This document shows, piece after piece, positions 6,974-62,716 of a DNA stretch of 64,000 nt (position 1 is its first letter; every line of letters begins with the position of its first letter). Made by a program: the position numbers and the translations under genes. The stretch spans positions 62,001-126,000 of the forward strand of contig NZ_JAHVJA010000003.1 of the NCBI RefSeq assembly GCF_019801465.1, given 5' to 3'. Source of the DNA: Leisingera daeponensis (GTDB lineage: Bacteria > Pseudomonadota > Alphaproteobacteria > Rhodobacterales > Rhodobacteraceae). The notes below the pieces were generated by a model, which was given only the letters and a program-made list of their open reading frames with translations, did not search any database and was not told where the DNA came from.

Positions 6974-7286
6974 AGGCGGGGTCCGGAAGTGTCGGTTTCG
7001 GGGCAGGCTAGCAGCCGCGCGGCGGCGGCGCAGGGCAAAAACGCCGGGGTCTGGCCTGCTGGCGTCTTCCTGCCGCGGCAGGCGGGGCCTAGCGGGCGGA
7101 AAGCTGCAGGGCCGCAGCCGCGCGATGCGCCGGTTCCGGCCGGCGGCGGGTGTTCCGCAGGCCTGTCCGGCCTTCGTCATATGCCGGAATCGTGATCCGT
7201 GGTAGGATGCGGCCGGGGCATGCAGGCCGGAGTATCCGGCATCGTGCCTGCGGCCGGCCTGATCTTCCGCCCCAGGGAGTGACAGA
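6974..7286. other. 313-base region with no convincing gene
   Basis: The gap lies between the divergent ferredoxin-like gene and the GYD gene and should contain both promoters. Open frames here are GC-rich shadows with arginine- and proline-heavy translations. I found no clear -35/-10 pair, only a short CCAGGGAG ribosome-like stretch just before the GYD start. Confidence 0.5.
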
Positions 7287-7619
7287 ATGCCAAGATTTAT
7301 CGTGACCGGGAACTACACGTCTTCTGCGATGAAGGCGCTGATCGAAAGCCCCAGCGACCGCGAGGCTGCGGCCCGCGCCCTTGTCGAGGCGGCGGGCGGC
7401 AAGCTGGAGAGCTTCTATCTGACCACGGGGGAACATGATTTCGCGATCAAGGTCACGATCGACGATGTCTCCAGCCTCTTGGCTGCCCTGCTGGCGACCG
7501 GTGCCAGCGGTGCTGTCAGCAACCTCAGGACCGTCCGGGCGTTCACCTCGGACGAGTTCACGGAAATCCAGAAGAAGGCGGGCAAGTTCGCCAGCGCCTA
7601 CAAGTCGCCGGGAAGCTGA
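7287..7619 (+). CDS. GYD domain-containing protein
   Basis: 110 residues with the GYD-domain layout: MPRFIVTGNYTSSAMKALIESPSDREAAARALVEAAGGKLESFYLTTGEHDFAIKV, then a C-terminal helix with NLRTVRAFTSDEF. GYD proteins are small ferredoxin-fold alpha/beta proteins of unknown biochemical role. CAGGGAG lies about 7 bases before the ATG. It is transcribed alone and is convergent with argB. There is no signal peptide, so it should be cytoplasmic. Confidence 0.85.
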   Translation: MPRFIVTGNYTSSAMKALIESPSDREAAARALVEAAGGKLESFYLTTGEHDFAIKVTIDDVSSLLAALLATGASGAVSNLRTVRAFTSDEFTEIQKKAGKFASAYKSPGS

Positions 7620-7680
7620 TCAGCGGAGCCGCTGCTCAGCCGGCTGAAAAAATCGCGGGGCGAAACGGCCCGGGCGAGCC

Positions 7681-7701
7681 AAGAGGGGCAGCGCCCCTCT
7701 T
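7681..7701. terminator. perfect hairpin between convergent GYD and argB genes
   Basis: AAGAGGGGC (7681-7689) pairs perfectly with GCCCCTCTT (7693-7701) around a 3-base loop. It is midway between the two convergent stop codons and could terminate either transcript. It lacks a long T run. Confidence 0.5.
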
Positions 7702-7722
7702 GCGGTCCGGCTGCCTGCGCGG

Positions 7723-8583
7723 TCAGGCCCGGATCATCGAGCCTGCGCCGTGGTCGGTGTAAAGCTCCAGCAGCACGGCGTTCTGCACCCGCCCGTCGAC
7801 GATGATGCAGGCGCGCACGCCGCCCCGGACCGCATCCAGCGCGGTTTCGGTCTTGGGGATCATGCCGCCGGCGATGACGCCGCTGGCGGTCATCTCCTCG
7901 ACATCCGCCGCCTTCAGCTCCGTCACCACTTCGCCCTCGGCGTTCTTGACGCCGGCCACATCGGTCAGCAGCAGCAGCCGGTCAGCCTGCAGCGCCTTGG
8001 CGATGGCGCCTGCGGCAGTGTCGCCATTGATGTTGTAGGTCTCGCCGTTGCGGCCGCCGCCGATCGGGGCGATCACCGGAATCATGTTCTTTTCGAACAG
8101 CCCGTGCAGCACCTTGGGGTCCATTTCCGCAGGCGCGCCGACAAAGCCGAGATCCGGGTCGGCCTGGTCGCAGGTGATCAGGCTGGCGTCCTTGCCCGAC
8201 AGGCCGACGGCGCGGCCGCCCTGGCTGTTGATCGCCTGCACGATACGCTTGTTGACGACGCCGGACAGCACCATCTCCACCACTTCCATGGTGGCGGCGT
8301 CGGTGACGCGCTTGCCGTTCACGAACTCCGACTTGATCTGCAGCTTTTCCAGCATTGCGTTGATCATCGGCCCGCCGCCATGGACGATCACCGGGTTCAC
8401 CCCGACCTGCCGCATCAGCACGATGTCACGGGCAAAGGTTTCCATCGCCTCGTCGCTGCCCATGGCGTGGCCGCCGAGCTTGATGACGACAATCGCCCCG
8501 GAGAAGCGCTGGAAATACGGCAGCGCGCTCGACAGGGTTTCGGCAGTGGCAATCCAATCGCGGTTCATATTCTGTTTCTTCAT
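7723..8583 (-). CDS. argB: acetylglutamate kinase
   Basis: 286 residues, the usual length. ArgB phosphorylates N-acetyl-L-glutamate in the cyclic arginine pathway. Visible family motifs are [10 protein letters not shown] (phosphate-binding Lys and Gly loop near residue 33), [28 protein letters not shown], and [12 protein letters not shown] followed by [11 protein letters not shown], the ATP-site lysine region. It is an amino-acid-kinase fold protein acting in the cytoplasm. It stands alone on the minus strand, convergent with the GYD gene and divergent from the SDR gene. Confidence 0.95.
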
Positions 8584-52744: not shown

Positions 52745-55033
52745 TTATTCCGCCACGCAGTCGGCGAAGTAATGGGTCAGCCCGTCGGGACCGGTTTCCT
52801 GCACCAGCCCATGAATGTCGGTCTCGAACCCCGGGCATTCCCGCCCGAAGGCGCGGTTGAACTTCAGGTATTCCACGATCTTCTTGTTGAACACCTCGCC
52901 GGGGATCAGCAGCGGAATGCCAGGCGGGTAGGGGGTCACCAGGCTGGTGGTGATGCGCCCCTCCAGTTCGTCGATCGGCACCCGCTGGGTGGTGCGCCGG
53001 GCGATATGGCTGAAGGCATCGCTCGGCTTCATCGCCGGGGTCAGGTCGCTCAGGTACATCTCGGTCGACAGCCGCGCTACGTTGTTGCGGGCATAAAGCG
53101 CGTGCACATGCTCGCACAGGTCGCGCAGGCCCATCTGCTCGTACCGCGGCTGGCTGGCGCAGAACTCCGGCATCGCGCGCGGCACGGCCAAGTTGCGTGC
53201 AAAGTCGTCCTTGAACTGCTGCAGCGCGCTCAGCAGGGAATTCCAGCGGCCCTTGGTGATGCCGATGGTGAACATGATGAAGAAGGAATAGAGCCCGGTC
53301 TTTTCCACCACCACGCCGTGCTCCGCCAGGTATTTGGTCACGATTGAGGCCGGGATGCCCCAGTCCTCAAACCGGCCGTCCAGATTGAGGCCAGGGGTGA
53401 TGATGGTGGCCTTGATCGGGTCCAGCATGTTGAAGCCCGGCGCCATGTCGCCGAAGCCGTGCCAGCTGTCCTCACCGCCCGCTTCCACACCGTCGGCATC
53501 GGTCTTCTTCAGGACCCAATCCCGGGTGCTGCCGATGCCCTCTTCGGCCAGATCCTCCGGCCCCCAGACCTGGAACCACCAGTCGTCTGAGCCGTATTCT
53601 TCATCGACCTTGCGCATGGCGCGGCGGAAATCCAGCGCCTCCATGATGCTTTCCTCGACCAGTGCGGTGCCGCCTGGCGGCTCCATCATCGCCGCCGCCA
53701 CATCGCAGCTGGCGATGATCGAATACTGCGGGCTGGTGGAGGTGTGCATGAGATAGGCTTCGTTGAACAGATGCCGGTCCAGCTTGGTCTCCTCGCTGTC
53801 CTGCACCAGCACGTGGCTGGCCTGGCTGATGCCCGCCAGCAGCTTGTGGATCGACTGGGTGGCATAGGTCACCGAATGCTTGGTGCGCCCGCGCTTGCGG
53901 CCCATCGCGTGGTAGCTGCCATAGAACGGGTGGAAGGCCGCATGCGGAAGCCAAGCCTCGTCAAAATGCAGGTTCTCGGCATAGCCGTCCAGCTGGCCCT
54001 TGATCACCTCGGTGTTGTACAGCACCCCGTCATAGGTCGACTGCGTCAGCGTCATGATCCGCGGCTTCACCGCATCGGCATCCACGTCCTTCAGGAGCGG
54101 GTTGGCACGGATCTTGGCCTTGATGCTGTCGATCTCGAACTCGGAATGCTGGATCGGGCCGATGATGCCCCAGTGGTTGCGGGTCGGTTTCAGGAACACC
54201 GGGATGGCGCCGGTCATGATGATCGAATGCAGGATCGACTTGTGGCAGTTGCGGTCTACCACCACCACGTCGCCCGGCGCCACCGTGTGGTGCCAGACCA
54301 TCTTGTTGGAGGTCGAGGTGCCGTTGGTGACAAAGAAACAATGGTCGGCGTTGAAAATCCGCGCCGCATTGCGTTCCGAGGCCCCGATGGCGCCATTGTG
54401 GTCCAAAAGCTGCCCCAGTTCCTCAACCGCGTTGCAGACATCCGCCCGCAGCATGTTTTCGCCATAGAACTGGTGGTACATCTGCCCGACGGGGCTTTTC
54501 AGAAACGCAACGCCGCCGGAATGCCCCGGACAGTGCCAGGAGTAGGAGCCGTCCTCGGCATAATCCAAGAGCTTCTTGAAGAATGGCGGCTGAATGCTCT
54601 CGAGATAGCCCTTCGCCTCGCGGATGATGTGCCGGGCCACGAATTCCGGCGTGTCCTCGAACATGTGGATGAAGCCGTGCAGCTCGCGCAGGATGTCATT
54701 GGGCAGATGGCGGCTGGTCTTGGTCTCGCCGTAGATGTAGATCGGCACATCGGCGTTCTTCCAGCGCACTTCCTCGATGAAGGTGCGCAGGGCCAGAACA
54801 GCCGGGTCCAGATCCGGACCGGGGGTGAACTCCTCGTCGTCGATCGACAGTACAAAGGCGCTGGCGCGGGACTGCTGCTGCGCGTATTGCGACAGGTCGC
54901 CATAGCCGGTGACGCCCTGCACTTCGAATCCCTCGTCCTCGATGGCCTGGGCCAGAGCGCGGATGCCGGAGCCCGAGGAGTTCTCGGAGCGGAAATCTTC
55001 GTCAATGATCACAATGGGGAAGCGGAACTTCAT
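52745..55033 (-). CDS. Orn/Lys/Arg decarboxylase, probably AdiA-like arginine decarboxylase
   Basis: 762 residues, the full size of inducible PLP decarboxylases. An N-terminal wing/receiver-like domain (IVIIDEDFRSENSSGSGIRALAQAIEDEG) is followed by the PLP core. The cofactor lysine is in TYATQSIHKLLAGISQAS; HCPGHSGGVAFLKSP and DQ-rich C-terminal regions fit the family. AdiA makes agmatine, LdcI makes cadaverine, and SpeF makes putrescine; I lean to arginine by similarity of the lysine-region context but substrate is not certain. No antiporter gene is adjacent. It is divergent from the MarR gene. Confidence 0.82.
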   Translation of the reverse strand: MKFRFPIVIIDEDFRSENSSGSGIRALAQAIEDEGFEVQGVTGYGDLSQYAQQQSRASAFVLSIDDEEFTPGPDLDPAVLALRTFIEEVRWKNADVPIYIYGETKTSRHLPNDILRELHGFIHMFEDTPEFVARHIIREAKGYLESIQPPFFKKLLDYAEDGSYSWHCPGHSGGVAFLKSPVGQMYHQFYGENMLRADVCNAVEELGQLLDHNGAIGASERNAARIFNADHCFFVTNGTSTSNKMVWHHTVAPGDVVVVDRNCHKSILHSIIMTGAIPVFLKPTRNHWGIIGPIQHSEFEIDSIKAKIRANPLLKDVDADAVKPRIMTLTQSTYDGVLYNTEVIKGQLDGYAENLHFDEAWLPHAAFHPFYGSYHAMGRKRGRTKHSVTYATQSIHKLLAGISQASHVLVQDSEETKLDRHLFNEAYLMHTSTSPQYSIIASCDVAAAMMEPPGGTALVEESIMEALDFRRAMRKVDEEYGSDDWWFQVWGPEDLAEEGIGSTRDWVLKKTDADGVEAGGEDSWHGFGDMAPGFNMLDPIKATIITPGLNLDGRFEDWGIPASIVTKYLAEHGVVVEKTGLYSFFIMFTIGITKGRWNSLLSALQQFKDDFARNLAVPRAMPEFCASQPRYEQMGLRDLCEHVHALYARNNVARLSTEMYLSDLTPAMKPSDAFSHIARRTTQRVPIDELEGRITTSLVTPYPPGIPLLIPGEVFNKKIVEYLKFNRAFGRECPGFETDIHGLVQETGPDGLTHYFADCVAE

Positions 55034-55189
55034 GCCAATCTCCTAGCGGCTCTCCAGCTCTGTTCCCGAAGATACAGGCTGACCGCGTTGATGCAACGCC
55101 CGCGGCAGGGCGCAGATCGCGTTACGCCCATCCGTGCACGCCGCCAAGAGGGGATGTAAAGATTCCGCTGGCCTTTGCCGTTCAAATAG

Positions 55190-55202
55190 TTGACATTGTC
55201 AA
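55190..55202. promoter_or_regulatory. MarR operator candidate
   Basis: TTGACA and TGTCAA form a perfect inverted repeat around T55196, ending 5 bases before the marR ATG. Its position would let the regulator block its own transcription and that of the dehalogenase gene. It also marks the most AT-rich point of the adiA-marR divergent gap. Confidence 0.6.
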
Positions 55203-55207
55203 TTACC

Positions 55208-55660
55208 ATGACTCAGCACAGCTTTCATCTTCACACTTCCCTTGGCTATCAGATCACCATGCTGGCGCGTGTGATCGAACGCCGTTTCGAACAGCGCATC
55301 GCCGAATACGGCCTGACCCGTGTGACCTGGTGTGTGCTGCTGGCGGCGGGGGAGGAGGGACTGGCAACGCCCTCCGAGATTGCGGATTTCATCGGCATCG
55401 ACCGCACTGCCACCTCCCGCGCCTTGCGGCAGATGGAGGCGGGCGGCCTCGTCACCCGCAGCAGCGGCCCGGGGGACGGCCGGTCGATCCGGGTGGCGCT
55501 GACCGGGCCGGGGCAGGCGGCGCTGCAGGCGGTGCTGCCTATCGCGCAGGAAAACGCCGCCCATTTCGAGGCCAAGCTGTCAGAGAGCGAGCTGGCACAA
55601 TTGCGCCAGGCCGCTGCCAAGCTGCTGCAGGACGAGCCGCGCATCGTCGCCAAGCTGTAA
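55208..55660 (+). CDS. MarR family regulator of the reductive dehalogenase gene
   Basis: 150 residues from the ATG at 55208; a TTG at 55190 lies inside the palindrome and is unlikely. The winged HTH is ATPSEIADFIGIDRTATSRALRQMEAGGLVTRSSGPGDGRSIRVALTGPG. The helical ends (FHLHTSLGYQITMLARVIERRFEQRI; SESELAQLRQAAAKLL) make the dimer. MarR proteins bind phenolic or aromatic ligands, which suits a dehalogenase for halogenated phenols. It ends 17 bases before the dehalogenase gene. There is no clear ribosome site, so leaderless initiation is possible. Confidence 0.87.
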   Translation: MTQHSFHLHTSLGYQITMLARVIERRFEQRIAEYGLTRVTWCVLLAAGEEGLATPSEIADFIGIDRTATSRALRQMEAGGLVTRSSGPGDGRSIRVALTGPGQAALQAVLPIAQENAAHFEAKLSESELAQLRQAAAKLLQDEPRIVAKL

Positions 55661-55677
55661 CTCACCGGGGATCAAAC

Positions 55678-58600
55678 ATGGGCAAACTGTTTTCCTACCG
55701 CAACCGTCCTGTGCATCTGGGGCCGTACCCGATGGAAACCCTGGCGCGGCAGAAGATGCCGGCCGGCCAGGACGCGCTGCCGCCGCAGGGGCAAGCCGGC
55801 TTCCGCCGCCCGGATGCGCCGCTTTCCATCGTCAATGCGATGCGCGACTATCAGGCGATGCTGGACGCCACCCGCGAAGGGCTGGTGAAACGGGAGCGTG
55901 CGGACATTCCCGCCAGCCCGCAGGAGCGCACCGATCATCTGAAGGCCTTCGGCTATTTCTGCGATGCCTCGCTGGCAGGCGCTTGCGCAGTGCCTCCCTC
56001 GGCCTGGCTGGACACGCCGCTGGTGAACCCGGATGTGGCCGCTCTGGCCGAAGCATTGCGCAGCAAGCAGACCAAGACTTTTGCCTCCGGCATTGACGTG
56101 GTGATGGCGAACCTGCGCGAGGCAATGCAGGCCCCGCCCGCGGACTGCCGCCACCACAGCCACGCACTGGTCTATATCTACGAATTCCCTCGCGACCCCG
56201 AAGCAGGGGAAGACGGCACCGATTGGCTGATGGACGCGCAAGAGCAGCGCGCCTGCCTGCGCGCAGCGGAAACCGCGGTGACGCTGGCCAACTACATCCG
56301 CCTGCTCGGGTGGGAGGCGCGCGCCCACACTGGCGCGGCCAGTGACGTTCACCTGGGCAAGCTGGTCGTGCAGGCAGGCCTTGCCGCCTATGAGGACGGC
56401 GTGCTGACCAACCCGTACCTCGGCAGCCGCTTCGGCATCGCCGCGGTCACCACCACGCTGGAACTAGCCGCCGATCTGCCGCTGGTCCCGGGGCAGGCGC
56501 CGGGCCTGAAATACCGGCTGGGCCTCGGCACCCACGCCAAAAGCGCCGCCAGCCGCGACCCTTACGCCAAACGCCGGTTCAGGGACGGTCCGCACCCGTT
56601 CGAGACCCTGAAACGGGTGAAGGATCCAACGACTTACATCGACGAGGCGAACGTCGCGCGGGTGCCGAAACGCGCTGACATGTTCGCGCGCGCCCTGTTC
56701 GGAGACCTCGGCAAAGGCCCGCAGGAGGCGGCCAGGAACGGCAACTACGTCCGCAAATCCTCTGCCGCCTTTGCCTTCCGCTCCTCCCTGGCGGCCTTCG
56801 TGCTGCTGCAGGACGGCGAAGCCGCGCCGCAGATCGACCCCAGCGCCGCGGACGCCGCCCGCAATGCCGCCAACATCAAGGCCGCAGCCTATTTCCTCGG
56901 CTGCGATGCGGTCGGCATCTCGCGCTGCCCGGACTGGGCTTATTACTCCCATGACGCCGCGGGCGAACGCCTGGCGCCATATCACGAAAACGCCATCAGC
57001 ATGATCATCGATCAGGGCCACGAGACGATGGAAGGCGCCTCCGGCGACGACTGGATCGCCTGTGCCCAATCGATGCGCGCCTATCTGCGGTTTTCGCTCC
57101 TGGGCGGGGTGATCGCGCAGCAGATCCGCAACCTGGGCTATACCGCGCGGGTGCATTCGGTGATGGACGGCGAAGTGCTGCAGCCGCCTCTGCTGCTCTT
57201 ATCGGGTCTCGGCGAGGTCTCCCGCATCGGCGAGGTGATCCTCAATCCCTTCCTGGGCCCCCGCCTGAAATCCGGTGCGGTCACCACCAATCTGCCGATG
57301 ACCCATGACAAGCCGGTCGACTTCGGGTTGCAGCGGTTTTGCGAGGCCTGCAACAAATGCGCCCGCGAATGCCCCTCGGGCGCCATTACCGCCGGGCCTA
57401 AGCTGATGTTCAACGGCTACGAGATCTGGAAATCCGACAGCCAGAAATGCACCACCTACCGGGTTACCGTGCCGGGCGGCGCGATGTGCGGGCGCTGCAT
57501 GAAGACCTGCCCCTGGAACCTCGAAGGGCTGTTTGCCGAGGCGCCGTTCCACTGGGCCGCGATGAACGTTCCCGGCAGCGCGCCGCTGCTGGCGAAGCTC
57601 GACGATGCGCTGGGCAACGGCGAGGTGAACGCGGTCAAGAAATGGTGGTGGGATCTGGAGATGGAGGACGATGGCGCGTATCTGCCGTCAAAGCACCCGG
57701 TCAACGCCCGCAGGCTCTCTAAGGATCTGGACCTGAAGTTCGAGGATCAAACCCTGGCGGTCTACCCCGCGCCGCTGGCGCCGCCGCCCTACGCCTGGCC
57801 TGCGCCGATGGACCGCGAGGCCGGGATCGGGGCCTATCAGGCCATGATCACCGCAGCGGAACACAAACGCCGCCGCGCCGCAGGCCAGCCGCCGGAACAT
57901 GTTTATACCGCCGATCAGGGCGAAGCGCCGGTGATGCGGGTGCGGCTGTCGAAGGCCGAGCATATGACGGACGCCGTCACCAAGTATGAATTCTCCTTGC
58001 CTGACGGCGCCCTGCTGCCCCCGGCAACAGCTGGCGCCCATATCGACGTGGTGGTGGCGCCGGAATTCTTCCGCCAGTACTCGCTGTCGGGCGATCCGGC
58101 GAACCGCACGAAATACCAGATCGCGGTGCTGCGCGAGGAGGCGGGCCGCGGCGGCTCCAGGCTGCTGCACCGGATCTTCGAGGAAGGGCGGATGGTGTTC
58201 ATCTCCAAGCCCATCAACCACTTCCCGCTGGCCGAGGACGCAGCCAGGTCCTACCTGATGGGCGGCGGCATCGGAGTGACGCCGATGATCGCCATGGCCC
58301 ACCGCCTGCATGCGCTGGGCCGGGAATTCGAGTTCCGCTATTCTTGTTCGAAAAAGGCAAGCGCAGGGTTCCTGGAGGACCTTCGGAACGTTCCCTGGGC
58401 AGATAAAGTGCATCTGCATTTTTCGGACCAGGGCTCCCGCGCGGACCTGGACGAAGTGCTGCAATACGCGCCGGGCAGCCATGTTTACACCTGCGGACCG
58501 GAGGCATACATGCAGGCCGTGCTTGAGGCCGCAGAAGCCAATGGCTTCCCGGAAGGGGCCCGTCATATGGAATACTTCTCGGTTCCCGAACAGCCCGAAT

Positions 58601-58875
58601 ACGAAAACCACCCCTTCACCCTGAAGCTGGCAAAATCGGGACGCGAGATTCTGGTGCCGCCCCAGAAAACCGCCACCGAGGCGCTGGCGGACAGCGGCAT
58701 CCATGTGGATGTGAAATGCGCTGACGGCATTTGCGGCGTCTGCAAATGCGGGCTGATCTCCGGCAACGCCGAGCACCGCGACTTCGTGCTTTCGAACAAA
58801 CAGCGCGAGGGCGCGATCATTCTTTGCCAGTCCCGGGCACTGGAACCGGACGGGGTGCTGGAAATCGATCTCTAA
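55678..58875 (+). CDS. self-sufficient cytoplasmic reductive dehalogenase (RdhA fused to FNR and [2Fe-2S] ferredoxin)
   Basis: 1065 residues from the ATG at 55678. Residues 1 to about 740 are a cobalamin-dependent reductive dehalogenase; CEACNKCARECP (555-565) and CGRCMKTCPW (604-612), with C591, supply the cysteines of two [4Fe-4S] clusters. Residues about 750-965 are an FNR/phthalate-dioxygenase-reductase module (RQYSLSG at 799-805, GGGIGVTPMI at 862-871, YTCGPEAYM at 937-945). Residues about 975-1065 are a plant-type [2Fe-2S] ferredoxin with C1014, C1019, C1022 and C1050. No Tat signal or membrane anchor is seen. This is the architecture of the NpRdhA type from Nitratireductor, which debrominates halogenated phenols using NAD(P)H. 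Substrate is unproven here. Confidence 0.9.
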   Translation: MGKLFSYRNRPVHLGPYPMETLARQKMPAGQDALPPQGQAGFRRPDAPLSIVNAMRDYQAMLDATREGLVKRERADIPASPQERTDHLKAFGYFCDASLAGACAVPPSAWLDTPLVNPDVAALAEALRSKQTKTFASGIDVVMANLREAMQAPPADCRHHSHALVYIYEFPRDPEAGEDGTDWLMDAQEQRACLRAAETAVTLANYIRLLGWEARAHTGAASDVHLGKLVVQAGLAAYEDGVLTNPYLGSRFGIAAVTTTLELAADLPLVPGQAPGLKYRLGLGTHAKSAASRDPYAKRRFRDGPHPFETLKRVKDPTTYIDEANVARVPKRADMFARALFGDLGKGPQEAARNGNYVRKSSAAFAFRSSLAAFVLLQDGEAAPQIDPSAADAARNAANIKAAAYFLGCDAVGISRCPDWAYYSHDAAGERLAPYHENAISMIIDQGHETMEGASGDDWIACAQSMRAYLRFSLLGGVIAQQIRNLGYTARVHSVMDGEVLQPPLLLLSGLGEVSRIGEVILNPFLGPRLKSGAVTTNLPMTHDKPVDFGLQRFCEACNKCARECPSGAITAGPKLMFNGYEIWKSDSQKCTTYRVTVPGGAMCGRCMKTCPWNLEGLFAEAPFHWAAMNVPGSAPLLAKLDDALGNGEVNAVKKWWWDLEMEDDGAYLPSKHPVNARRLSKDLDLKFEDQTLAVYPAPLAPPPYAWPAPMDREAGIGAYQAMITAAEHKRRRAAGQPPEHVYTADQGEAPVMRVRLSKAEHMTDAVTKYEFSLPDGALLPPATAGAHIDVVVAPEFFRQYSLSGDPANRTKYQIAVLREEAGRGGSRLLHRIFEEGRMVFISKPINHFPLAEDAARSYLMGGGIGVTPMIAMAHRLHALGREFEFRYSCSKKASAGFLEDLRNVPWADKVHLHFSDQGSRADLDEVLQYAPGSHVYTCGPEAYMQAVLEAAEANGFPEGARHMEYFSVPEQPEYENHPFTLKLAKSGREILVPPQKTATEALADSGIHVDVKCADGICGVCKCGLISGNAEHRDFVLSNKQREGAIILCQSRALEPDGVLEIDL

Positions 58876-58890: not shown

Positions 58891-59282
58891 TCAGAACGGC
58901 TGCCGCTCGCCGAGCAGGTAGCGCACCGCATCCGCGTAATCGAATGCCAGTGAGACCACGATTACCGTGCACACCGTCAGAATGATCCGCCGCGGCCAGA
59001 CTGGCATATCCGGGCGCGCCTGCTGGTGCCGCAGCCAGAAAACCAGCGGTGTCCAGAAAAGGATATGCGGCAGCCCGAGCAGGCGCACATAGCCAAGCTG
59101 CCCGTAGATCCAGTAGACCCCTCCCGCTGCCAAGATGCTGGCTGCCGCCGTCACCAGTCCCGCGATCCGGCTGGGCTTCCAGATCAGCAGCGCCAGCGGC
59201 AGCACAAAGGCCCCAGAAACAGGATATTGACCCATACCTGCAGCCACACCGGCCGGGTTGCGATTGCCTCTTCCAATGTCAT
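58891..59282 (-). pseudogene. small membrane protein gene with a one-base frameshift
   Basis: The natural start is the ATG at 59282 with GGGAGG upstream, giving MTLEEAIATRPVWLQVWVN then ILFLG. After about codon 24 this frame turns to CCRWR-type sequence. The conserved hydrophobic continuation (AFVLPLALLIWKPSRIAG, then two or three more helices and a VFWLRHQQ region, ending DAVRYLLGERQPF) lies in the next frame. The break maps to the CCCC at 59211-59214, one base short. It may be a true pseudogene or a homopolymer sequencing error. The family is a 3-4 helix membrane protein of unknown function. Confidence 0.65.
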
Positions 59283-59899
59283 GGTGCGGCCCTCCCGCCT
59301 GCGACCCTAGGCAGGGGCATTCCGCGCGGCAAGGGTCGGAGCGCCGGACCTTCACGCAACTTGTCCTGTTCCGACGGCGCTGGCGTGCGGTTGAACACGT
59401 AAGTTGTGCGGCAGGCCTCCTCGCCGCCCAATTCCTCGATCCTGCAGCGCTGATCGGCAAAGGCGCGGGCGTTTACCTCTTCGGGATCGCAAATCGCCCG
59501 CAGACGCCGCTCGCCCTCAGCCAGCGCAGCCTTGGCCTCCCGGTCATTCTCCCCGTCCGCTGCCCGGTCCGCCTGCTCATGAGGATCCCCTGCCAGATCG
59601 AACAACTGCGGCCGCAGCCCGGCGTAATGGAGGTATTTCCACATGCCCCACCGGACCATGAAGGCGCCGGTTTTCGACCCTCCATCCTGGTATTCGCTGA
59701 AGCCGGTTCGGCTCTCCTTGTAGGATGCTTTGGCAATCGCGCGCAGCGGGACACCGGGCAGGCCTGCGTCCTCAGCTGTGGCGCGCGCCACCAGTGCATC
59801 CAGGTTCGGGGTCTTCACGATGGGATGGCCCGCGCGGCCCATCGCATTCTTGCGGTGCTCATCCGGGATGATGACCAGCAAATTCGGCAGTTGGCTCAT
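59279..59899 (-). pseudogene. sulfatase remnant with internal in-frame deletion
   Basis: The open frame from the ATG at 59899 gives about 206 residues. The first 38 (LPNLLVIIPDEHRKNAMGRAGHPIVKTPNLDALVARAT) are a sulfatase N-terminus with the metal-binding Asp-Glu. The sequence then joins directly a sulfatase C-terminal part (SYKESRTGFSEYQDGG to RWGMWKYLHYAGLRPQLFDLAGDPHEQADRA). The middle of about 250-300 residues, including the CxPSR formylglycine site, is absent, so it cannot be an active sulfatase. Its stop overlaps the next frameshifted gene by 4 bases, so the two once formed an operon. Confidence 0.75.
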
Positions 59900-60061
59900 C
59901 CTGACCTCCCCCTTTTGGCTTGGCTCCCAGACTGGCGGCAAAACACGGCGCCTGAATGCCGGATTTCGGCATCCGGGCGGCAGAAAACCCTTTGCGCGTC
60001 CACACTCTGCTGCCTCCAGGGTTGCGGGCTGCGGAACAGGCTGCTATCTCTGCTGTTAGGG

Positions 60062-60091: not shown

Positions 60092-61294
60092 ATGACAGAC
60101 AGCAGGCTGCCGGTAACCGTGCTCTCGGGCTTCCTCGGGGCGGGCAAGACCACGCTTTTGAACCACGTTCTGAACAACCGCGAGGGGCGCCGGGTTGCAG
60201 TGATTGTCAACGACATGAGCGAGGTGAACATCGACGCTGACCTGGTGCGCGGTGAAACCGAGCTTTCGCGGCAGGACGAGAAACTGGTGGAAATGACCAA
60301 TGGCTGCATTTGCTGCACGCTGCGCGACGACTTGCTGCAGGAGGTGCGCCGCCTCGCGGCGGAAGGGCGGTTCGACTACCTGCTGATCGAAAGCACGGGC
60401 ATTGCCGAGCCGCTGCCGGTGGCTGCGACCTTCGATTTCCGCGATGCCGAAGGGCAGAGCCTCTCGGACGTGGCCCGCCTTGACACGATGGTTACGGTGG
60501 TCGATGCGGTGAACCTGCTGAAGGACTTCTCCAGCCATGATTTCCTCAGCGACCGCGGCGAAAGCCTGGGCGAGGAGGATGACCGCACCCTGGTCAACCT
60601 GCTGACCGACCAGATCGAGTTCTCCAACGTAATCATTCTGAACAAGGTGACGGATGCAGGCCCGGCGCAGACCGAAGCCGCGATGGCGGTGATCAAGGCG
60701 CTGAACCCGGATGCGGAAGTGATCCAGACCGACTTCTCCGAAGTTGAAGGAAACCGCATCTTCGACACCGGCCGCTTCGATTTCGATAGGGCGCATGAGC
60801 ACCCGCTGTGGGCCAAGGAGCTTTATGGTTTCGAGCACCACGTGCCGGAAACCGAAGAATACGGCATCTCCTCCTTTGTCTACCGTGCCAAACGCCCCTT
60901 TGATCCTGCCAGGATCCATGCGCTGCTGAATGGCGACCTGCCCGGCGTGATCCGCGCCAAGGGCCATTTCTGGCTGGCCACCCGCCCGGAATGGGCCGCC
61001 GAGTTCTCGCTGGCCGGCGCCATCTCCTCGGTCCGTCCGCTGGGCCTGTGGTGGGCGGCGGTGCCAACGGAACGCTGGCCCACGCACCCCGAGGCCCGGC
61101 GCGAATTCTTGCAGAATTGGGACGAGACCTGGGGCGACCGGCGCCAGGAGCTGGTGTTCATCGGTGCAGGCCTCGACAAGGAAGCCACCACCGCGCGCCT
61201 GGATGCCTGCCTGATGCCGGAAACGGCAAATGGATTCGATCCGGCCTGGGCCTCCCTGGAGGACCCCTTCCCAAGCTGGCGCCGCAATGGCTGA
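60092..61294 (+). CDS. CobW/COG0523 GTP-binding metallochaperone, zinc-starvation type
   Basis: 400 residues. Walker A is [17 protein letters not shown] near residue 12, and the metal-binding CxCC motif is [13 protein letters not shown] near residue 73. IESTGIAEP and NKVTDA are the GTPase switch and guanine-specificity regions. The C-terminal CobW_C domain follows ([19 protein letters not shown]). COG0523 proteins with a Zur box deliver or salvage zinc (ZigA, YeiR types) rather than cobalt for B12. It overlaps the following DUF6525 gene by 8 bases. Confidence 0.88.
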
Positions 61295-61573: not shown

Positions 61574-61951
61574 TCAAGCGGTCTTCTTCTCCGCCTCCGC
61601 GGCGGCATCATATTCGGCCCGTGCCGCGTCGATCGCCGGCAGATGCTCCAGCGCCCATAGCCCCAGCGCCTTGACCGGCTCACGGAATGACTCCCCCAGC
61701 GGCGTCAGAGCGTACTCCACTTTGGGCGGGATTGTCGGGTGATAGGTGCGGCTCACCAGCCCGTCGCGTTCCAGCTCGCGCAAGGTGAGGCTCAGCATGC
61801 GCTGGGAAATCCCAAGATGCCGCTTCAGGGCGTTGAACCGCAGCACACCGTATTGCGCCAAAGAGATCACGACCAGCACGCTCCAGCGGTCGCCGACCCG
61901 CGACAGCACCTCGTTGATACGGCCGCACTCCGGGCATTGTGGCTCTGCCAT
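61574..61951 (-). CDS. HxlR family transcriptional regulator
   Basis: 125 residues. The HxlR winged HTH is visible: CPECGRINEVLSRVGDRWSVLVVISLAQYGVLRFNALKRHLGISQRMLSLTLRELERDGLVSRTYHPTIPPKVEYALTPLGESF. An N-terminal cysteine pair (PQCPECGR) could be redox-sensing, as in some HxlR/HypR proteins. It is divergent from a nitroreductase gene across a 123-base gap, a layout often seen for redox- or aldehyde-responsive regulation of oxidoreductases. Confidence 0.87.
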   Translation of the reverse strand: MAEPQCPECGRINEVLSRVGDRWSVLVVISLAQYGVLRFNALKRHLGISQRMLSLTLRELERDGLVSRTYHPTIPPKVEYALTPLGESFREPVKALGLWALEHLPAIDAARAEYDAAAEAEKKTA

Positions 61952-62074
61952 GGTGGTTCCTTCCGTGTAACCTGGGCTCAGGAATGTGCCTTCTTGTGTC
62001 CATTCCAGTGCTGCTTATATAGCCGGTCACAAATTTATACCAGCCTTCACGCAATCCCCGAAAGGACCGGAAAC

Positions 62075-62716
62075 ATGAGCAAGAGCCCCCTGATCGAGAA
62101 GCTGAACTGGCGTTACGCCACCAAGAAGATGGACCCCTCCAAAGCGGTCCCGCAGGAGAAGGTCGATCAGATCATCGAGGCGATCCGCATGGCGCCGACC
62201 TCCTCCGGCACCCAGCCGTTCGAGGTTTTCGTGATCACCAGCCCGGAGATCCGCGCGCAGATCCGCCCGCACGCCTGGGACCAGGCCCAGATCACCGACG
62301 GCTCGCATCTCATCGTCTTTGCCGCCTGGGACAACTACTCCGAAGACCGCATCGACGCGGTGACCCGCCAGATGACCGAGGAGCGCGGCGAGATCCCGAT
62401 GCTGAACCAGTATTATGATAACCTCAAGGCCACCTACCTGCCGCGCGAGGAGCGCACCAACCACGACCACGCCGCCCGTCAGGCTTATATCGCGCTGGGC
62501 TTTGCCCTGGCCGCCGCGGCGGAACTGGAGGTGGACAGCACTCCGATGGAAGGTTTCACGCCTGAGAAAATCGACGAAATCCTGGGGCTTCGCGAGAAGG
62601 GCCTGCGCTCAGTCCTCCTGCTGCCGCTTGGCTACCGCCAGGAGGACGGCGACTGGCTGCTGCCGATGAAAAAGGTCCGCAAGTCCCGTGAAGCCATCGT
62701 GACCGACATCGTCTGA
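62075..62716 (+). CDS. nitroreductase family NAD(P)H-dependent oxidoreductase
   Basis: 213 residues from the ATG at 62075, preceded by AAAGGA. It is an FMN enzyme of the NfsB type. WRYATKKMDPSKAV and IIEAIRMAPTSSGTQPFEVFVI near residues 10-50 are the FMN/phosphate-binding opening. RQAYIALGFALAAAAELEVDSTPMEGF and LGYRQEDGDWLLPMKKVRKS are the C-terminal family signatures. It reduces nitro-compounds, quinones or similar acceptors in the cytoplasm. It is divergently paired with the HxlR regulator, which likely controls it. Confidence 0.88.
   Translation: MSKSPLIEKLNWRYATKKMDPSKAVPQEKVDQIIEAIRMAPTSSGTQPFEVFVITSPEIRAQIRPHAWDQAQITDGSHLIVFAAWDNYSEDRIDAVTRQMTEERGEIPMLNQYYDNLKATYLPREERTNHDHAARQAYIALGFALAAAAELEVDSTPMEGFTPEKIDEILGLREKGLRSVLLLPLGYRQEDGDWLLPMKKVRKSREAIVTDIV

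Follow-up and report, generated by a model that had tools for sequence, protein, structure and literature searches.

A MarR-type regulator and predicted operator paired with a self-sufficient reductive dehalogenase gene in Leisingera daeponensis

The alphaproteobacterium Leisingera daeponensis carries two adjacent genes, here named marR and rdhA, within a stretch of 64,000 nucleotides (nt) that is referred to as the window (contig NZ_JAHVJA010000003.1, positions 62,001 to 126,000 of the forward strand; RefSeq assembly GCF_019801465.1, 4.89 Mb in 48 contigs). The first gene (55208..55660, + strand) encodes a MarR-family winged-helix regulator of 150 amino acids (aa), a putative local repressor, and the second (55678..58875, + strand) encodes a 1065-aa protein with the features of a self-sufficient catabolic reductive dehalogenase. 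The marR stop and the rdhA ATG are 17 nt apart, and direct reading of the sequence places a ribosome-binding-site-like GGGGA (55667..55671, + strand) between them. Upstream of marR lies a 21-bp palindrome, ATAGTTGACATTGTCAATTAC (55186..55206, + strand), which carries 12 of 12 core bases, has its last base 1 nt before the marR ATG and is the predicted MarR operator. An earlier note, made from the letters of this DNA, had described the stretch 55208..58875 as a MarR-controlled reductive dehalogenase; both genes do lie there, but 55208 itself is the start of marR, and the 1065-residue frame it reported runs from the ATG at 55678 to the stop at 58873-58875. The kind of enzyme is already known, and the new part is the regulation, that is, the paired MarR and its operator, of which no published account was found in the open-licence PubMed Central (PMC) literature, covered mostly at title and abstract level.

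RdhA can be divided into a dehalogenase part and a C-terminal electron-transfer part. The NCBIfam reductive dehalogenase model TIGR02486 matches the protein with 199.4 bits (cut-off 160.35), and residues 3-734 match the structures 4ras, 6zxu and 6zy0 of the Nitratireductor pacificus enzyme NpRdhA with E values of about 1e-161 to 1e-160. The fold of this part also matches NpRdhA, with Foldseek and VIA-align placing known folds first. The NpRdhA-like cobalamin/[4Fe-4S] part (residues 1-740; 55678..57897, + strand) includes six residues of the NpRdhA active site (F336, S465, M466, Y469, K531 and R595), all of them present in every one of the 29 aligned relatives, and the catalytic Tyr/Lys/Arg set whose alignment the earlier note had proposed as a check is present, Y469, K531 and R595 corresponding to Y426, K488 and R552 of NpRdhA. 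The two [4Fe-4S] cysteine sets (57340..57510, + strand) were placed by that note at the exact positions, C555/C558/C561/C565 and C591/C604/C607/C611, and are invariant in the same 29 relatives. The note's reductase of FNR type is likewise there, though it is more exactly a flavin/NAD(P)H domain of the phthalate dioxygenase reductase (PDOR) type (residues 750-968; 57925..58581, + strand), since residues 751-1062 match phthalate dioxygenase reductase 2pia with an E value of 1.5e-56; the P450 reductase fusions 6kbh and 6laa are matched as well. The plant-type [2Fe-2S] ferredoxin domain (residues 980-1065; 58615..58872, + strand) is recognized by Pfam Fer2 (3.4e-8), and its cysteines C1014/C1019/C1022/C1050 are kept in 29 of 29. 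The N-terminus, MGKLFSYRNRPVHLG, judged by eye from the sequence only, has no apparent twin-arginine translocation (TAT) or Sec signal. No match below an E value of 0.001 was obtained with the Pfam dehalogenase model PF13486, which is uninformative here, being silent in the genome search including 14 control genomes. The family score, the cluster motifs with the active-site set and the C-terminal PDOR-like fusion together bear out the earlier description of a self-sufficient catabolic reductive dehalogenase, which by its domains would use NAD(P)H and cobalamin. For rdhA, comparison with four Leisingera orthologues gives ratios of nonsynonymous to synonymous substitution rates (dN/dS) of 0.085-0.104, and comparison with the more distant locus L013 gives 0.25 (dS 0.8, near saturation); these low values show purifying selection on the coding sequence. 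RdhA is probably a functional enzyme of a known kind.

Comparison with characterized enzymes places RdhA more closely; statements on published systems follow excerpts of the cited papers. JtRdhA of Jhaorihella thermophila (accession WP_104007082 according to PMC13101508), also a marine bacterium, is by its published description the same in build, an RdhA-PDOR fusion with no TAT signal and with the Y/K/R and F/S/M residue sets (PMC10463259), although the excerpts on JtRdhA describe no adjacent regulator. As this fused enzyme of a marine relative was already characterized in 2023 (PMC10463259), the novelty of the enzyme was overrated in the first reading. BhbA of Comamonas sp. 7D-2 (plasmid pBHB, NC_021077, locus L101) is 49.7% identical to RdhA over its full length, with the same domain order and the same residues, but its gene lies on a plasmid beside genes for a tricarboxylate-transport binding protein, a ligA/extradiol dioxygenase and a porin, with no MarR annotated alongside. 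The similarity to NpRdhA and BhbA anticipated in the earlier note is thus borne out, while its view that the reductase fusion defines the NpRdhA class is not: NpRdhA (4ras, 6zxu, 6zy0, 6zy1) shares the dehalogenase part and the catalytic residues but is naturally truncated and without a reductase, BhbA and JtRdhA being the fused ones (PMC10463259). Ros_A3X954 of Roseobacter sp. MED193 is, like RdhA, a reductive dehalogenase of a marine roseobacter that has no TAT signal and acts on bromophenol; unlike RdhA it is short, with its clusters at 283-294 and 337-345; it lost its activity in oxygen (PMC13101508). Assignment of the window protein to this short unfused kind (about 390 aa, clusters near 283 and 337) was rejected on account of its 1065 aa and its fusion, and assignment to the respiratory, PceA-like kind on account of the fused reductase, that class being a stand-alone catalytic subunit. 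Matches to short unfused reductive dehalogenases were seen in at least 15 of 20 same-genus genomes, and the two loci checked (L108, L111) have cluster motifs as in Ros_A3X954. When the host genome was searched with a short enzyme of the Ros_A3X954 type, the sole match was rdhA itself.

The regulator gene encodes a MarR winged-helix domain (MarR_2, PF12802, 6.3e-14; PF01047, 2e-11), and its NCBIfam matches, which include bilirubin, SlyA and HpaR regulators, all fall under the cut-offs. Its association with rdhA was followed through 323 relatives of the enzyme, for which 80 loci were kept and 79 used after L075, which lacks a complete frame at a contig end, was dropped (L-numbers denote loci, G-numbers same-genus genomes). 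With a profile built from the neighbouring MarRs, 39 of these loci show a MarR immediately before rdhA and in the same direction, at most about 35 nt from the rdhA start in 38 of them, the distance in L011 not being meaningful with its split rdhA frame. Upstream sequence is short at L072 (about 600 nt) and at L038 (about 450 nt, too little to score the absence of a MarR). In a quickly built tree with 84 rows, which carries a long-branch warning for L105, leaves out the split L011 (as does the distance test) and scores a divergent Jannaschia MarR as present, MarR presence changes 9 times, as against 28 with shuffled labels. The pair looks old, with several losses, because it is spread over deep branches and occurs also in Aminobacter (L105). 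Pairwise MarR and RdhA distances are correlated (r = 0.88, n = 40, a value reached in none of 2000 permutations; 0.82, n = 30, when the window and L001-L009 are removed), as expected for two genes inherited together. A second sample comprised 80 of the 149 matching family genomes, mostly from the upper and middle parts of the match list, with a MarR sought within 1.3 kb upstream. A MarR-like gene was found in 13, of which 9 score at least 200 bits (5 repeats of known MarRs and 4 new ones); all four new orthologues have Asp65, the residue discussed below, and a site of at least 10/12 core bases, and the remaining four MarR-like genes (56-141 bits) have best operator cores of 7 to 9 of 12. Other arrangements were also encountered. 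Locus L070 (MED193; 7138-7923, - strand) and locus L040 (Phaeobacter) share one gene family divergent to rdhA, in L070 with a LuxR-type GerE domain, and the MarR is missing at both, which suggests a change of regulator. On a Jannaschia plasmid rdhA has a divergent MarR gene (L103; 8458-8910, - strand) whose product shows 43-45% identity, and the best match to the operator core there is 8/12. MarR-type regulators also adjoin rdhA genes in Dehalococcoides, where the enzymes are respiratory.

The predicted operator has the core TTGACA-N-TGTCAA. At least 10 of its 12 bases are found in 33 of the 39 MarR-bearing loci versus 2 of the 40 without MarR (L033 and L076, where the match lies before rdhA), an association with a Fisher p of 8e-14 when kinship is ignored. 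Tabulated over 41 rows (the window, the 39 loci and L105), the best core reaches 10 or more in 34 rows, 9 in five and 7 in two, and in 33 of the 41 the best 21-mer ends between 1 base before the marR ATG and 2 bases into it. The window contains one match versus 0.02 expected in shuffles, and the host genome a single match at one mismatch or fewer, plus one weak site with two mismatches; a MarR regulon that takes in transporters or catabolic genes was rejected, there being no second site in the host genome at one mismatch. Within the genus, 15 of 17 rdhA-bearing genomes (the split copy of G013 included) have a match with at most one mismatch about 475-510 nt before rdhA; G010 and G014 are without such a site, and their loci L088 and L004 show, by eye, copies with more mismatches. 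Many same-genus genomes hold further one-mismatch matches, up to four, as against 0-1 for the reversed pattern. A second core copy of at least 10 bases lies 21-22 nt away in six loci (L004, L015, L016, L019, L050 and L052), and G003 has two pattern matches 21 nt apart. With a single base between palindrome and marR ATG in the window, a Shine-Dalgarno sequence would not fit there, and the marR-rdhA transcript may, as a guess, be leaderless. The conserved predicted operator at the marR start backs, at the level of sequence, the MarR control proposed in the earlier note.

The operator also appears to vary with one residue of the regulator. Of the 41 MarRs, 33, the window protein (D65) among them, have Asp at position 65, which stands at the start of the recognition helix, and the third half-site pair of these loci is G..C in 31 (L024, with a weak site, included) and G..T in 2. 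All five Ile65 proteins go with A..T and both Asn65 proteins with G..T, and the one Gly65 protein has no clear site. Residue 65 thus appears to read this operator pair, an assignment of residue to base that draws on knowledge of the family.

The genomic distribution of rdhA agrees with the marine roseobacter host suggested in the earlier note, as the ten loci of at least about 88% identity (L001-L009 and L011) comprise nine from Leisingera and one from a Rhodobacteraceae metagenome-assembled genome. Among 20 same-genus genomes, in which identity reaches 92%, rdhA is intact in 15, split into two frames in one (G013) and reduced to eroded pieces in two (G001 and G002), and no copy was found for G005 and G008 among the matches listed. 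Both split copies, L011 (Leisingera sp. JC1) and L097 (G013), break near residue 911, through either a true frameshift or a sequencing error, and may be of one strain. In G001 and G002 (L109 and L110) eroded pieces of marR, rdhA and a sulfatase lie near a ZigA gene whose alignment is full-length, and the group has thus decayed where it stood. In the family as a whole, an rdhA match at E 1e-150 or better was obtained for 149 of 394 sampled genomes. Roseobacter sp. MED193 carries an rdhA orthologue too (L070, 67%), and bhbA homologues have been described as widespread in the Roseobacter clade (PMC13101508).

On the left of the pair the window has a divergent Orn/Lys/Arg decarboxylase gene (52745..55033, - strand; Pfam OKR_DC_1, 6.2e-143) and on the right an eroded sulfatase gene (59279..59941, - strand), both regarded as neighbours only. 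In the Leisingera loci rdhA lies near such a decarboxylase, a small protein without a Pfam domain and a sulfatase. Many loci outside Leisingera have rdhA in another conserved site, between a HAD phosphatase and a GGDEF response regulator (both by Pfam); there we take MttB to lie on the HAD side, and a small gene, presumably of DUF3572 type, to precede the GGDEF regulator. A CobW-domain gene of the window (60092-61294) was considered as a cobalamin gene and rejected, since its score is that of the zinc chaperone ZigA (603.3 bits, cut-off 600). Further on (61574-62716) an HxlR-type regulator (- strand) adjoins a nitroreductase-family frame (+ strand) that scores under the NCBIfam cut-off. The statement in the earlier note that transporter and ring-cleavage genes are lacking holds beside rdhA, but ring-degradation genes do sit elsewhere in the genome, namely pobA, on the same contig as rdhA, and the gene of the protocatechuate 3,4-dioxygenase beta subunit (pcaH). 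The host genome also has cobS and cobN, in answer to that note's question about cobalamin synthesis. Near the rdhA genes of some relatives transporters do occur, with a betaine-type ATP-binding cassette (ABC) set near the Jannaschia rdhA, a tripartite ATP-independent periplasmic (TRAP) transporter set divergent to the MarR-rdhA pair of Aminobacter (L105; 5543-8369, - strand), a possible uptake partner, and ABC-transporter-like genes within 8 kb of rdhA at some Litoreibacter loci, which we take to be of the zinc type.

These observations are quite probably explained by a two-gene unit in which a soluble, self-sufficient dehalogenase is governed by a local MarR autorepressor and its product is used by the host through the PobA/protocatechuate route. 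Electrons would pass from NAD(P)H to the flavin and the [2Fe-2S] cluster of the C-terminal reductase part, then to the two [4Fe-4S] clusters and on to a base-off cobalamin, which would remove bromide or iodide ortho to the phenol hydroxyl, Y469 delivering the proton with the help of K531 and R595. 4-Hydroxybenzoate is an example of a product that would then feed into the PobA/protocatechuate route encoded elsewhere. A MarR dimer on the 21-bp palindrome abutting its own start codon would block the two-gene transcript, and a halogenated phenol, or its product or a related aromatic, would release it and turn on both genes. Among substrates, ortho-bromo- and ortho-iodophenols are likely, and bromo- and iodophenols are the best guess because of the published chemistry of JtRdhA, which carries out NADPH-driven debromination and deiodination of phenols with and without air (PMC10463259). 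A possible natural substrate is offered by the bromoalterochromides, made by Pseudoalteromonas of the squid host in which Leisingera ANG1, ANG59 and JC1 live (PMC7333567). Among the rdhA-bearing loci, L001, L002, L006, L008 and L011 come from Leisingera strains named ANG or JC.

Several points weigh against this explanation. The other 40 of the 79 loci have no such upstream MarR by the profile search, and 67 of the 80 genomes of the second sample have no MarR-like gene within 1.3 kb upstream, so the enzyme does not need the MarR everywhere; the rarity of the MarR in the second sample slightly lowered our confidence in the explanation as a whole. The loci are related and their counts are not independent. 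L024 and L048, which have the MarR, show no recognizable site. Of the ten pairs formed by the palindrome arms, a single one shows clear covariation beyond column make-up (pair 7, 31 of 35 complementary versus 23.6 expected); it is small at pair 3 (23 versus 18.4) and absent at the other pairs. A simple scan 5′ of marR found no sigma-70-like promoter. The five Ile65 loci form one clade, and because of this the joint change of residue 65 and base pair counts as one event, not five. On the side of the enzyme, the structure model is of moderate quality (mean predicted local distance difference test score 71.5, low over 561-625 and 646-720), and pocket geometry was not taken from it; oxygen tolerance of RdhA should not be assumed either, given the loss of activity of the short debrominase Ros_A3X954 in oxygen (PMC13101508).

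Tentatively, the pair could be seen as an old, self-contained sense-and-detoxify cassette and not as a piece of a catabolic operon. Its MarR, with a single strong target in the genome, would sense a halogenated phenol and switch on one enzyme directed at brominated phenols of neighbours or hosts (algae, sponges, metabolites of co-resident Pseudoalteromonas), with carbon use secondary. This is supported by the lack of an adjoining transporter or ring-cleavage gene beside the window pair, unlike BhbA and Nitratireductor OM-1, and by the occurrence of the same pair with its site in Aminobacter and its erosion in place in two sister species. Its odds are lowered by the TRAP transporter divergent to the Aminobacter MarR; the ABC-like genes near some Litoreibacter rdhA genes also speak against it, and most small neighbour families are without annotation.

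It is rather unlikely that the MarR is instead an activator or a general sensor of phenol or oxidant stress, the locus then answering aromatic or oxidative stress and not halogenated phenols. MarR proteins sense many ligands, the sub-threshold matches of this one include the bilirubin, SlyA and HpaR regulators, and a Cys beside a Trp (W41-C42), as read from the alignment, is kept in 37 of 41 MarRs, all of which would suit such a sensor. However, the genome holds just one site with no more than one mismatch, and its position at the regulator's own gene speaks against a general stress regulon; a site that abuts or overlaps its own start codon suits repression more than activation. That RdhA also dechlorinates, or acts mainly on chlorinated pollutants, is improbable, as the chlorinated phenol analogues tested on JtRdhA were inhibitory and gave no turnover (PMC10463259), and dechlorination should not be assumed.

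It is more doubtful still that the sulfatase belongs to the unit and releases bromophenols from sulfated algal forms for debromination. A sulfatase-family gene is convergent to rdhA in the Leisingera set (a family of 16 loci), and the CVPTR or CVPAR motif is kept in the three copies read. Nevertheless it lies on the opposite strand, no locus outside the Leisingera set was seen to have its family within 8 kb of rdhA, and in the window it is eroded while rdhA is under purifying selection. Alignment with L001, L007, L009 and L095 makes the window copy a 220-aa remnant without the catalytic part that L001, L007 and L009 retain, and a Pfam scan of it found no domain; it is thought to lie outside the unit. 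Least credible of all is that rdhA is a relic, decaying and functionless in this strain. Two sister genomes have only eroded marR, rdhA and sulfatase in place and a third has rdhA in two frames, but the frame here is whole, no cofactor residue is lost and the within-genus dN/dS is as low as given above.

Under the preferred explanation of a dehalogenase with its own autorepressor, the predicted operator, together with the residue apparently reading it, gives a handle on when rdhA is switched on and possibly a ready-made sensor for brominated phenols. Under the detoxification reading, the correspondence between D65 and its base pair would make this MarR a natural sensor of such phenols. Given the 149 of 394 genomes with a match, NAD(P)H-driven debromination may be nothing unusual in this mostly marine family.

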